From a virus: a stretch of 42,210 bases of DNA. The translations under genes and the position numbers were made by a program. The notes beneath the pieces were generated by a model, which was not told where the DNA came from, ran no database searches, and worked only from the letters and a program-made list of their open reading frames with translations. The stretch is from the IMG/VR virus record IMGVR_UViG_3300034082_002654, positions 1-42,210 of that record, one strand, 5' to 3'. Positions 16,183-39,942 of the stretch are shown in pieces; the stretch's first letter is position 1, and every line of letters starts with the position of its first letter.

Positions 16183-16208
16183 CTATGCAAATGCTTTGGG
16201 GGTTCACG

Positions 16209-17855
16209 ATGAGTCTGGATAATTTGAAACAACAATTGGTCAATCAGCAGGTGAATGCAATGCAATTGGGCCATCAATTGAAGAAATATCAACAACAATT
16301 GGATGAATTATTCCCACAGCAAGCGCCTTTGGCTGCAAAATTTCACGCCTATGTGTATGGTGCAACTCCAGCAATTTGTGATCAAAGCAACAAATTTCGC
16401 ACATGGGACGGATGGGATCAAGGATTCAGACAGTTTTGTGGCAATCAGGGCAGTTGTGTGTGCAACGGACAACATGCACAAACCAAAAGAACTGAGAAAA
16501 CTGTAGAGCAACAAGAATTGATTGTGGAAAAACGCAAACAAACCAATATTAAAAAATATGGTGCAGAGTTTGCCAGTCAGACCACACAGATCAAAAATAA
16601 AACATTGGAAACTTGCATGCGCAAATATGGTGCACGTTCCCCCACCAGCAATAGAGAGGTTTTGGAAAAAAGTTCTCAGACTTGCATGCAACATCATGGC
16701 ACGGCTTGGCCTCAACAAAATCCAGAAATTTTTGCCAAAACACAAATGGTATTCCAAGAACTGTTTGGAGTAGATAAGCCTGCTCAACACCCAGAAATAA
16801 GAGAGCAATTGAGAACAATGAGACGGCAACAGGGCTATGACTTGTTGGCCGTCAACTATCCACAAGTGATTCCCATGTTTGATCAAACGACTTATATGCA
16901 AGCAGATTTTGCCACACAATTGGAATGGAAATGTGTTGAATGTGATAATATATGGTCACAAACAAAACGACCTCATGAAGATCCCAGATGCATAATTTGT
17001 CATCCAGCTAGAGAAACCTGGGGTGAGACTGCAATCAAAAAATGGCTTGTGGAGAATAATCAAAAATTTGTTCAATGGGATAGAGAACAAATAAGCCCAC
17101 TGGAATTGGATTTTTGGCTTCCGGACCACAAAATTGGTATAGAATTCAATGGCACATGGTATCATAGAGAAGATGCAGTTCCCAGCAGAAATTATCATCA
17201 ACAGAAGTTTTCAGCTGCTCACAAAAAGGGCATCAAATTGATCCAAATATGGGAGCATGAATTGATGTATAAACCACAAATTGTCATGGATAGGTTGGCG
17301 CATGTGATCAATTTTCACAATAAAAAAATAGCTGCGAGAAAATGCCAAATTCAGCCCATAGATCATATGATTGCACGTGAGTTTTTCAATACACATCATT
17401 TGCAGGGACATCAAAACAGCAAACACATATATGGGCTGTTTTGTAATAATCAATTGATTGCTGCTGCTAGTTTTGTGCCTGTGAGATACAACAAAAAGGC
17501 AGAATGGGAATTGTTGAGATATGCAACTGTGGGTGGTCATCAGGTGCAAGGTGGATTGAGCAGGCTGTTGGCACATGCACAAAAAACAATAGGATTCAAG
17601 TCCTTGCTCACATATGCTAATTTGAATTGGGGTATGGGAAATGCCTATGCTGTGACTGGATTTGTATTGGATCATATCAGCAAACCCAATTATTGGTATT
17701 TCCGAGGGCTCAAGGAAATACACAGCCGAATCAAATTCCAAAAACACAAGATAATTGGAAAGGCGCCTGGCAACTCAGAGAAAGAGATAGCCCAAAATAT
17801 GGGCTATCACAGGTTTTTTGATGCAGGAAACAGTGTTTGGATCAAATACTGGTGA
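16209..17855 (+). CDS. EDxHD (Vsr-like) homing endonuclease with C-terminal GNAT/Mom-like domain
   Basis: A 548-residue protein starting at ATG 16209 (MSLDNLK), preceded by GGGGG; an ATG at 16185 is less likely. Parts in order: about four degenerate repeats of the form KYG-x-x-x-P/A-S-Q (about residues 112-205), as in DNA-binding arms of phage endonucleases; two CxxC pairs (CVEC, CIIC) forming a zinc ribbon; then a Vsr-like nuclease core with WGETAIKKW, LELDFWLPDHKIGIEFNG, TWYHRED and LIQIWEHEL, matching the E-D-x-H-D pattern of I-Bth0305I-type enzymes. The last about 180 residues (HHLQGHQNS, WELLRYAT, LLTYANLNWG) resemble a GNAT-like domain of the Mom type. It sits between gp47 and gp55, and its stop touches the gp55 stop. 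Confidence 0.8.
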   Translation: MSLDNLKQQLVNQQVNAMQLGHQLKKYQQQLDELFPQQAPLAAKFHAYVYGATPAICDQSNKFRTWDGWDQGFRQFCGNQGSCVCNGQHAQTKRTEKTVEQQELIVEKRKQTNIKKYGAEFASQTTQIKNKTLETCMRKYGARSPTSNREVLEKSSQTCMQHHGTAWPQQNPEIFAKTQMVFQELFGVDKPAQHPEIREQLRTMRRQQGYDLLAVNYPQVIPMFDQTTYMQADFATQLEWKCVECDNIWSQTKRPHEDPRCIICHPARETWGETAIKKWLVENNQKFVQWDREQISPLELDFWLPDHKIGIEFNGTWYHREDAVPSRNYHQQKFSAAHKKGIKLIQIWEHELMYKPQIVMDRLAHVINFHNKKIAARKCQIQPIDHMIAREFFNTHHLQGHQNSKHIYGLFCNNQLIAAASFVPVRYNKKAEWELLRYATVGGHQVQGGLSRLLAHAQKTIGFKSLLTYANLNWGMGNAYAVTGFVLDHISKPNYWYFRGLKEIHSRIKFQKHKIIGKAPGNSEKEIAQNMGYHRFFDAGNSVWIKYW

Positions 17856-21939: not shown

Positions 21940-21944
21940 ATTCC

Positions 21945-21950
21945 TATTTA
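21945..21950 (-). promoter_or_regulatory. TAAATA box 5 nt before the nucleotidyltransferase start
   Basis: Minus strand reads AAGTAAATAGGAATATG. It is back to back with the plus-strand box at 21958-21963 that serves the GIY-YIG leader. Confidence 0.55.
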
Positions 21951-21957
21951 CTTGACA

Positions 21958-22024
21958 TAAATAAAGTGTGGATCACGGAATTGGCCTTCCCATCCACTCT
22001 AAACGCTATTAAGGAGCATTCAGC
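21958..22024 (+). promoter_or_regulatory. Homing-endonuclease leader A: late box, 5' stem-loop, TAAACGCT, ribosome site
   Basis: TAAATA (21958-21963) is followed by exactly 36 nt, then TAAACGCT (22000-22007), 4 nt, AGGAGCAT (22012-22019) and the ATG at 22025. The 36 nt fold as GTGGAT (21968-21973) with ATCCAC (21992-21997) and GGAA (21977-21980) with TTCC (21987-21990), with a 6-nt loop TTGGCC. The same architecture, with different stem bases, precedes the HNH gene at 39182. The stem would be at or near the 5' end of the late transcript. Confidence 0.7.
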
Positions 22025-22977
22025 ATGTCATATTTAAACACAATACCATTCTATGTCTATAAAATTGTCTGTAAACCAACAGAACAATATTATTTTGGAT
22101 CACGATACAGTCATTCATCAAACGGAATTCAACCCGAAGATGATTTGTGGAAGAAGTATTAAGGAACTATTTTACTAGTTCTCTGCTAATCAAAGATCTA
22201 CTTCGTGTTTATGATAAGAATCAATTTGAAGCAACTATCGTTCAAATATTTGACGATAAGAATGAAACATTTTGGTATGAGCAAACGTTGATCAAAGAAC
22301 ATATTGATGATCCATTATGTTTGAATTTGAATTTTGTGAATTACAGAGAAGGCAGAGGAATATCTATACCTGCAGGGTTAAAGGTGTGGACACACTCTAT
22401 CACACGCAAACGACGATATTCAAACACATCTCCAGGAGTTGATTGGTGTTTAGGCGGAGGTGGTCATACAAATTTTGTAGCCTATCATAATAAAGATAAC
22501 AAGATCAAATATTTTGATTCGGATCCTGGAGAAGAATGGACTAAAGGATTTGGTAATCTTTGTCGCATGAATTCCATAACTTATGGTAACAGTTACAATC
22601 TAAATAAATTATGGTGGAACAATGGTGAACAATCAGTCATGCGTCAACAATGTCCTGGTGATGCATGGAAGCCTGGAAGATTGTCTTGGACCACTAAAAC
22701 CTCCCCATCACAAGCTAAGAGAGCCAAAATAAGCCACGCCAACAATGGCAAGAAAGCGTACAATAATGGAGATTACACTATTATGCGCAAGGAACACCCT
22801 GGTCCGGAATGGGTTGAAGGTGTGTTACCAAATATGACCACTATGATGAAACGCAGTGTGGCAAAGCGAGGTAAACCAAGCAACACCAAGGGTAAACATT
22901 GGTGGAATAATGGTTCAGAAAATAAGCTTGCTGAAATTTGTCCTGGTGTTGACTGGATCAAAGGTAGACTACTCTAA
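22025..22977 (+). pseudogene. GIY-YIG homing endonuclease, frameshifted
   Basis: From ATG 22025 the frame gives MSYLNTIPFYVYKIV, EQYYFGSR and DLWKKY, the GIY-YIG core with its catalytic Arg, then hits TAA at 22160-22162. The rest of the domain (NYFTSS, YEQTLIKEH) continues in another frame from about 22162 to 22977, so one base is missing or two are extra. No slippery heptamer is seen at the join. The C-terminal half has about five repeats of about 25-45 residues ending in the pattern [C/H/S]PG-x-x-W-x-x-G, often with WWNNG before it, a DNA-binding repeat known from phage homing endonucleases. The gene is dead, assembled with an error, or read by frameshifting. Confidence 0.78.
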
Positions 22978-22985
22978 CCAAATTT

Positions 22986-23002
22986 AAACAGAATACCTGT
23001 TT
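22986..23002 (+). terminator. Weak hairpin after the GIY-YIG gene
   Basis: AAACAG (22986-22991), loop AATAC, CTGTTT (22997-23002). There is no U-run after it, so termination is uncertain; it may only protect the 3' end. Confidence 0.3.
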
Positions 23003-23012
23003 CAGGCTGTGA

Positions 23013-38682: not shown

Positions 38683-39078
38683 ATGGCAAATTCAGCAAGC
38701 AACAGGGTGTTTGTGGGCTACAGCAGCGTAGACACCAGTATCAAGCAAACACAATACACAGATCTGGACCTGATCAAAAGAGATTTGATCAATCATTTTT
38801 ATACCAGAAAAGGTGAACGTGTGATGATGCCCACTTTTGGAAGTATAATCTGGGATATGATTTTTGAACCCATGACTGCTGACAATGTGACCCTTATTGT
38901 GGATGACAGCACAAACATTGTGCAACAGGACACTAGAGTGAATCTGCAAAGCATCAATTTGGTGGAATATGATCATGGCATTCAACTGCAAATGAACATA
39001 TACTACCAGCCCCTGGATATAGTAGAGGCATTCAGCCTGGATTTTGACCGTAGAACTGTGGAAGCCACCTCATCATGA
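38683..39078 (+). CDS. 25: Baseplate wedge protein gp25 (GPW/gp25 family)
   Basis: The 131-residue protein matches T4 gp25 (132 aa) in length. Family hallmarks are DLDLIKRDLINHFYTRKGERVMMP (residues about 27-50), with the charged ring of the fold, GSIIWDMIFEPM and the C-terminal strand pattern. gp25 initiates the contractile sheath at the baseplate wedge. Its stop codon overlaps the ATG of a truncated gp6 start (ATGA), showing that gp25 and gp6 were once coupled as in T4, before the HNH gene entered. Confidence 0.93.
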   Translation: MANSASNRVFVGYSSVDTSIKQTQYTDLDLIKRDLINHFYTRKGERVMMPTFGSIIWDMIFEPMTADNVTLIVDDSTNIVQQDTRVNLQSINLVEYDHGIQLQMNIYYQPLDIVEAFSLDFDRRTVEATSS

Positions 39079-39113
39079 GCCAATCACTGAGACAAACCAA
39101 CCTTGAGAACTAA
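39075..39113 (+). pseudogene. Stranded original 5' end of gene 6 (12 codons)
   Basis: From ATG 39075, which overlaps the gp25 stop, the bases encode MSQSLRQTNLEN then TAA. The working gp6 at 39943 begins MSQSIRQTNL. The protein is the same at nine of ten positions, but almost every codon differs. The stop codon at 39111 is the TAAATA box of the HNH leader. The insertion therefore fell after codon 10 of the old gene. Confidence 0.85.
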
Positions 39114-39181
39114 ATAGGTGTGTGTCAGGAGGGTTGCGCCCCTCCTGACACCTAAACGCTCAATGGAGGAGCATCTAGCCT
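39111..39181 (+). promoter_or_regulatory. Homing-endonuclease leader B: late box, 5' stem-loop, TAAACGCT, ribosome site
   Basis: TAAATA (39111-39116), exactly 36 nt, TAAACGCT (39153-39160), 6 nt, AGGAGCAT (39167-39174), ATG at 39182. The 36 nt hold a 12-bp perfect stem (39122-39133 with 39140-39151) and a 6-nt loop TTGCGC at the same offset as in leader A at 21958. Stem bases differ between the two, but pairing and spacing are kept. Confidence 0.75.
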
Positions 39182-39892
39182 ATGAAATTATTTATCAGTG
39201 TAGGATTGCCTGTTGACAATCCTTTTATAGTCAACAAATATACATATTGGTACTATGCCATTATATCTTCAGCCTGTTCAAGGCACAATATAGAAGGATA
39301 TAAAGAGCAACATCATATCATACCCGATTGTTTTTTTATCAACAATAGAAGTAAAGGATCTAGACCAGGCTGGCTTCCTGGTGATTCAAACGATTCAAGC
39401 AATTTGGTACAGCTAACATCAAAGGAACATTTTATCTGTCATTGGCTTTTGACAAAAATGGTAACTGGACAAGCCTATTACAAAATGGAAAGAGCTTTGT
39501 GGATGTTGAGCTATGCCTCCTATGGAAGACCTCGCATTTGTAGTTCTGCACATTATTCAAGAGCTAAACTTGCAGCAATCCTACACAAATTACATAAACC
39601 ATCTCCTAAAAAAAATAAAAAATATGGTAAACAAAAAAATCCATATCAAGGACCACGGAACACTCCCAATTTAGGCAAATCTATACCAATGGAAACGAGA
39701 GAAAAAATAAGTAATAGCCTCAAAGGCCGTGTATCGCCTCGCAAAGGAAAAGTGGGAGAGCCCTCACCTAAAAGAGGGAAAGATTATGGTAAACAATCAA
39801 ACCCTGCACCAAAAATAAAATGCCCTACTTGCCCCAAATTGATTAGCAGCAATAATTTAAACAGGCATATGCTGAAATGCAATATTGAATAA
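39182..39892 (+). CDS. HNH homing endonuclease with NUMOD3-like repeats and C-terminal zinc finger
   Basis: A 236-residue protein. The HNH core lies at about residues 42-95: EQHHIIPDCF with the His pair, NLVQLTSKEHFICHWLL with the Asn and later His. Residues about 140-210 hold GKSIPMETREKISNSLKG and two PSPKRGKxYGKQ-like units, matching NUMOD3 DNA-binding motifs. The C-terminus CPTCPKLI...HMLKC is a CxxC-HxxxC zinc finger. Such enzymes nick a specific site in an allele lacking the insert and drive their own copying. Here the gene splits gp25 from gp6 and is introduced by leader B. The protein shows no truncation. Confidence 0.88.
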   Translation: MKLFISVGLPVDNPFIVNKYTYWYYAIISSACSRHNIEGYKEQHHIIPDCFFINNRSKGSRPGWLPGDSNDSSNLVQLTSKEHFICHWLLTKMVTGQAYYKMERALWMLSYASYGRPRICSSAHYSRAKLAAILHKLHKPSPKKNKKYGKQKNPYQGPRNTPNLGKSIPMETREKISNSLKGRVSPRKGKVGEPSPKRGKDYGKQSNPAPKIKCPTCPKLISSNNLNRHMLKCNIE

Positions 39893-39914
39893 TCTAGCAA
39901 CTTAAAACCGTTGA

Positions 39915-39920
39915 TAAATA
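39915..39920 (+). promoter_or_regulatory. TAAATA late promoter box for the re-started gp6
   Basis: Plus strand reads TTGATAAATAATC, 22 nt before ATG 39943. The relocated gp6 thus has its own promoter, replacing the lost coupling to gp25. Confidence 0.6.
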
Positions 39921-39942
39921 ATCAATCAGTTGGGATATATTC

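Follow-up and report, generated by a model that had tools for sequence, protein, structure and literature searches.

A homing endonuclease has to be expressed, without doing harm, in whatever genome it enters, and cis-acting RNA of phage homing endonucleases is an already known kind of element. A 5'-terminal stabilising hairpin is also known from the mRNA of a host gene, in the ompA leader. In I-TevI, I-TevII, I-TevIII and segB of phage T4 and in mobE of Aeh1, a late promoter is combined with a hairpin at the ribosome-binding site, and the nuclease is held back early in infection (PMC2988022). For seg43(25) of Aeromonas phage 25, which encodes a segD-like endonuclease, a stable hairpin lies immediately upstream of the Shine-Dalgarno sequence (PMC2988022).

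We analysed a 42,210-nt stretch of viral DNA (positions 1 to 42,210 of IMG/VR virus record IMGVR_UViG_3300034082_002654; hereafter the window) with tail, baseplate and portal genes, in which a GIY-YIG and an HNH homing endonuclease gene follow related leaders, A and B. The leader is a conserved RNA structure with two hairpins, H1 and H2, and promoter box, leader and open reading frame (ORF) form one inserted unit at both sites. The T4-type genes (I-TevI, I-TevII, I-TevIII, segB and Aeh1 mobE) are alike in having a late promoter, here a predicted one, directly upstream and a hairpin at the ribosome-binding site (PMC2988022); their RNA structures were described singly, whereas here one homologous two-hairpin RNA precedes many unrelated nuclease families. 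The T4-like Escherichia phage Ozark, which has an I-TevIII-like gene, gave no match to our model R2 at E up to 1, and I-TevI, segB and mobE were compared by description. So was seg43(25), which shares a hairpin by the Shine-Dalgarno sequence but is a single case for which no second hairpin is mentioned. The ompA-type hairpin likewise forms the extreme 5' terminus of an mRNA, but of a host gene and with no mobile cassette. Freshwater-2 RNA (RF02980) is also a structured 5' leader beside a Shine-Dalgarno sequence in phage DNA; it differs in sequence and fold and, at the locus concerned, does not stand in front of the endonuclease.

The leaders matched nothing in Rfam 15, whether in the window (E up to 5) or at 18 loci with diverged leaders (E up to 1); sub-threshold matches to sR35 and SNORD31 in the window were attributed to chance. 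Near the leaders of two other loci we observed a near-threshold freshwater-2 RNA (RF02980; L206:2013-2086), immediately ahead of the next gene after an HNH gene with the leader, and a GOLLD RNA with an internal tRNA (L152:959-1418), just upstream of a leader-bearing HNH gene and with tRNA genes beyond; both are elements other than the leader. We found no description of such a shared leader in the openly licensed literature. Within what could be tested, we regard as new a family of homologous RNAs that unrelated nucleases have in common and that is inserted together with them.

Reading the sequence bore out an earlier note on this DNA, which had placed both leaders here and given them a common order: TAAATA, 36 nt, TAAACGCT, 4-6 nt and AGGAGCAT (Table 1). 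The note's ATG does follow AGGAGCAT, after a spacer that we correct to 5 nt (TCAGC) in A and 7 nt (CTAGCCT) in B, and a stem closes a 6-nt loop at positions 18-23 in both, as described. Exact copies of TAAACGCT occur in the window in these two leaders only. A second hairpin, absent from the earlier note, is H2, formed by CUAAACGCU and AGCAUUCAG around the Shine-Dalgarno sequence.

Table 1. Positions of the two inserted cassettes and their parts in the window
Feature	Position	Strand	Remarks
Cassette A	21940..23010 (approximate)	+	Absent from L380; edges uncertain by 20-30 nt
Leader A, TAAATA box (late-promoter-like)	21958..21963	+	Direct reading
Leader A, after TAAATA	36 nt; TAAACGCT 22000-22007; 4 nt; AGGAGCAT 22012-22019; ATG 22025		
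Leader A, hairpin H1	21968..21997	+	Covariation; model match 21965-22024, 77 bits
Leader A, H1 stems	P1 21968-21973/21992-21997; P2 21977-21980/21987-21990		
Leader A, H1 loops	Internal CAC 21974-21976 / C 21991; 6-nt loop 21981-21986		
Leader A, hairpin H2	21999..22023	+	CTAAACGCT 21999-22007 / AGCATTCAG 22015-22023
SegE-type GIY-YIG homing endonuclease gene	22025..22977	+	Behind leader A; interrupted by 11-nt insertion
TATTTA behind leader A	22031..22036	+	Inside coding region; reverse complement of TAAATA box
Cassette B	39105..39942	+	Absent from L349-L357
Leader B, TAAATA box (late-promoter-like)	39111..39116	+	Direct reading
Leader B, after TAAATA	36 nt; TAAACGCT 39153-39160; 6 nt; AGGAGCAT 39167-39174; ATG 39182		
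Leader B, hairpin H1 (type B)	39122..39151	+	12 bp, without internal loop; 6-nt loop 39134-39139
Leader B, hairpin H2	39152..39178	+	CTAAACGCT 39152-39160 / AGCATCTAG 39170-39178 around Shine-Dalgarno
HNH homing endonuclease gene	39182..39892	+	Behind leader B; PHROG 655, NUMOD3 motif
TATTTA behind leader B	39189..39194	+	Inside HNH coding region; reverse complement of TAAATA box

Searches of viral contigs with the pattern CTAAACGCTN{3,8}AGGAGCAT returned 61 stretches, in most of which TAAATA and a hairpin are spaced in the same way; the remainder, without either, were set aside as chance matches. A second pattern, TAAACGCTN{3,8}GGAGCATTCAGC, gave 49 matches in viral contigs with leader context. 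The pattern AAACGCTN{3,8}AGGAGCATYYAGC matched bacterial genome contigs (257 Gb) three times, in no case strongly against the leader model, which argues that the leader is not a product of chance. After deduplication the pattern scans yielded 26 distinct leaders. Of these, 23 belong to type A, whose H1 is broken by the internal loop CRC/C; the 3 of type B have a long perfect stem as H1 and stood on PHROG 655 HNH genes only. All but one of the 26 precede endonuclease-like ORFs, the exception being L019 with a 38-aa ORF; the ORFs comprise SegE-type GIY-YIG, GIY-YIG of PHROG 15526, HNH_3, PHROG 655 HNH with NUMOD3, PHROG 10820 and PHROG 3339 / DUF7487. A further homing endonuclease gene of PHROG 3339 lies in the window at 16185-17855, with TAAATA upstream and without the two-hairpin leader.

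The family was widened by protein searches for the endonucleases followed by the covariance model on the loci; in all, the model finds some 150 distinct leaders, and almost every one comes from an uncultivated phage. The leader stood directly before the start codon in about 60 of the 76 loci of the HNH_3-type search and in more than half in the other searches, and the proteins at leader-bearing loci were often just 30-45% identical to the query. The two isolates with the leader are Rhizobium phage RHph_I1_18, the sole new find when leader sequences were compared with named phages by blastn, and Variovorax phage V45v66, whose leader as a blastn query matched itself alone. Model R2 found no match in seven of nine named phage records.

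Covariation had been claimed from the two window leaders, which are thin evidence because their stems belong to two subtypes (leader B itself matched the covariance model at 39117-39179 with 27 bits); the structure stands on compensatory changes in the wider family. Among the 23 type-A leaders, H1 had 56 double-change cells compared with 15 after shuffling and at most 16 in slid controls, and H2 was invariant. In the diverged leader L032 (4918-4975), H2 was kept with new bases, CUAUAACU/AGUUACAG. Across an alignment of 95 leaders, 96.6% of cells were paired, 16 of 17 base pairs had changed on both sides, and double-change cells numbered 307, compared with 79 +/- 7 after shuffling and at most 29 in slid versions. 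Since this alignment was fitted to the model, H2 was tested separately without it, by anchoring the strands of 101 leaders at both ends and scoring the inner five positions: these formed a mean of 3.71 pairs, compared with 2.53 when partners were swapped and 2.81 in the best of 500 swaps. TAAACGCT, which the earlier note took to be fixed, is not so across the family and varies together with its partner strand. The Shine-Dalgarno sequence AGGAG lies inside H2, in the loop and 3' strand; in leader A the loop, ATTAAGG, holds most of it.

The proposed covariance-model search was run, with matches almost confined to homing endonuclease starts. Gene-blind scans of whole records with the RNA models placed 63 of the 65 matches taken forward at the start of a homing endonuclease (HNH, GIY-YIG or other), the blind part being where matches fall within records preselected to hold at least one endonuclease relative; a few of these 63 endonuclease-like N-termini were cut short by a stop. 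Of the two exceptions, L282 was a 20-bit match attributed to chance and L277 a copy that lacks an ORF. Endonucleases were called from N-terminal motifs, BLAST clusters with HMM-classified members and HMM scans of odd cases. Single genomes may hold many copies: 13 in the 333-kb record IMGVR_UViG_3300032242_000723, with HNH, GIY-YIG and other nucleases, and 10 in a 155-kb contig, although copies per record are not a random sample because the records were chosen for holding an endonuclease relative.

The claim that leader sharing is independent of the nuclease protein agreed with a comparison of leader and protein relationships. Full-length clustering of the proteins was useless because shared C-terminal motifs merged nearly all of them, and the first 110 residues of 148 proteins were clustered, giving three large and four single clusters. 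In the comparison (INDEPENDENCE from nuclease), mean leader identity was 0.715 within and 0.707 between nuclease clusters, and one HNH gene (L003) and one GIY-YIG gene (L032) had leaders 95% alike. Leader history is thus decoupled from nuclease history. Swapping of the leader between nuclease genes would be the natural reading of these identities; strong constraint on the leader would also reduce the contrast within and between clusters.

Empty sites support the earlier suggestion of a mobile expression cassette: cassette A, which lies between two divergent genes, and cassette B are each absent from relatives (Table 1). Cassette B begins about 6 nt before TAAATA and ends where the start of the next gene is regenerated. 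It splits the 5' end of that gene, leaving a 12-codon remnant, MSQSLRQTNLEN (39075-39113), that ends in the TAA of TAAATA, and is followed by a new, differently coded start, MSQSIRQTNLFLGQDW, from 39943. In the GIY-YIG gene of cassette A, the insertion TAAGGAACTAT at about 22160-22170 brings a stop and breaks the frame after 45 codons. The interrupted form also occurs in L017, L023 and L062, and intact 313-aa copies in L008 and L052; that of L008 matches Pfam PF19835 (SegE_GIY-YIG), and the downstream frame in the window matches PHROG 314. The stretch to be skipped has the same codon, UAU, on either side, so that the frame would be regained by a bypass like that of T4 gene 60; more probably the allele is simply broken.

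Of 151 distinct leaders, 146 had TAAATA close to the start of the element and 101 had the first H1 base as the sixth nucleotide after TAAATA; most leaders had GGA 8-11 nt before the ATG. We take the box to resemble a T4 late promoter; if it works like one, the mRNA would start at the foot of H1. Several type-A leaders (among them L002, L011 and L027) also have a recurrent TGTCAA, the reverse complement of the -35-like TTGACA, from a few to about 15 nt before TAAATA.

The reading that we favour, and consider probable though well short of certain, is that the leader is the conserved 5'-UTR RNA of a portable late-expression cassette for homing endonucleases, made up of a promoter, a hairpin at the 5' terminus and a second one that would restrain translation. 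The cassette would carry its own late promoter, TAAATA, and transcription would start at or beside the first base of H1, so that the mRNA would open with a nearly blunt hairpin. Such a terminal hairpin should hinder 5'-end-dependent decay, a stabilising role that would fit the spacing from TAAATA to the first H1 base, and H2, folding around the Shine-Dalgarno sequence, would restrain translation. The data show the RNA structure, its near-exclusive tie to homing endonucleases, its independence of nuclease type and the cassette boundaries at the two sites; from there on we infer promoter activity, start site, 5' protection and translational restraint. Inserted as promoter, leader and ORF, the nuclease would be expressed late and moderately anywhere, independently of neighbouring genes. 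By analogy with the T4-type genes, holding the nuclease back early would be the most economical purpose here.

A second box bears on two of the other readings. Of 151 leaders, 131 had TATTTA after the start codon, compared with 13 of 750 control ORF starts (2%). In most leaders it, or TACTTA, lies 4-9 nt behind the element, and its distribution over all three reading frames (86/22/20) makes it a nucleotide-level feature. One possibility, which we hold only tentatively, is that in read-through RNA AUAAAUA and UAUUUAU close a three-way junction with H1 and H2 and so lock the start, that transcripts from the cassette's own promoter, which would not contain the first strand, are translated, and that the whole module evolves independently and is swapped among unrelated selfish nucleases. 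In about 82% of the short local folds the TAAATA/UAUUUA stem was no more than 1 kcal/mol from the optimum, and its median probability was 0.01 when folded with long flanks. Pairing extended slightly further beyond the core than in swapped partners, both outward (1.22 compared with 1.03, p 0.007) and inward (0.48 compared with 0.34, p 0.02), with p values that ignore kinship. In long-flank folds the mean unpaired probability of the Shine-Dalgarno sequence was 0.44 in read-through and 0.45 in late RNA, and because it is equally exposed in both, a simple on/off switch is unsupported. All five leaders that lack TAAATA also lack TATTTA, compared with 14 of the other 146; we rejected this joint loss as a sign of coupling, since it is confounded with subtype and the deviants show no alternative pairing.

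The positions that do not pair are themselves almost invariant: C-R-C opposite C in H1 and, at the third position of H2, an A-C mismatch in 100 of 101 leaders. That the mismatch and the CRC loop are conserved suggests that something outside the cassette account recognises them. The leader may be the binding site of a shared phage or host protein regulator, such as a translational repressor, with the stems presenting the site and the repressor reading the CRC loop and the UC-UAA/UCAG bases. We regard this as unlikely, since the phages that carry the leader differ in host (Rhizobium, Variovorax and many uncultivated ones) and such a regulator would need to be widespread.

It is more improbable still that TAAATA and TATTTA are opposed late promoters, with sense and antisense transcripts that would each start at the foot of one hairpin and an antisense RNA that would temper nuclease expression. 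TATTTA is the exact reverse complement of the box, its position 4-9 nt behind the element is independent of frame, and the distance between it and H2 mirrors the TAAATA-H1 distance; but about half of the type-A leaders lack TATTTA, and the base preferences around the two boxes are mirrored just partly. Inverted repeats at the left end of a mobile unit could also act as DNA, forming single-strand hairpins in recombination or replication as the cassette moves. The fixed distance to the start codon and the Shine-Dalgarno sequence within H2 point instead to a function in mRNA, and the right ends that were read show no matching structure, so we give this reading very little credence. A self-cleaving or otherwise catalytic RNA through which the nuclease mRNA is processed at its 5' end, in purpose like the lariat-capping ribozymes of some intron endonuclease genes, is scarcely credible: two compact hairpins just ahead of a homing endonuclease, with unpaired bases that do not vary, would suit it, but no Rfam ribozyme matched at permissive thresholds and the promoter position would already set the 5' end at H1.

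The leader model provides a sequence handle by which homing endonuclease genes can be found from the leader alone, including those of two isolated phages. If the shared module travels with its own late promoter, as we think probable, selfish genes would exchange regulatory parts besides enzymes.
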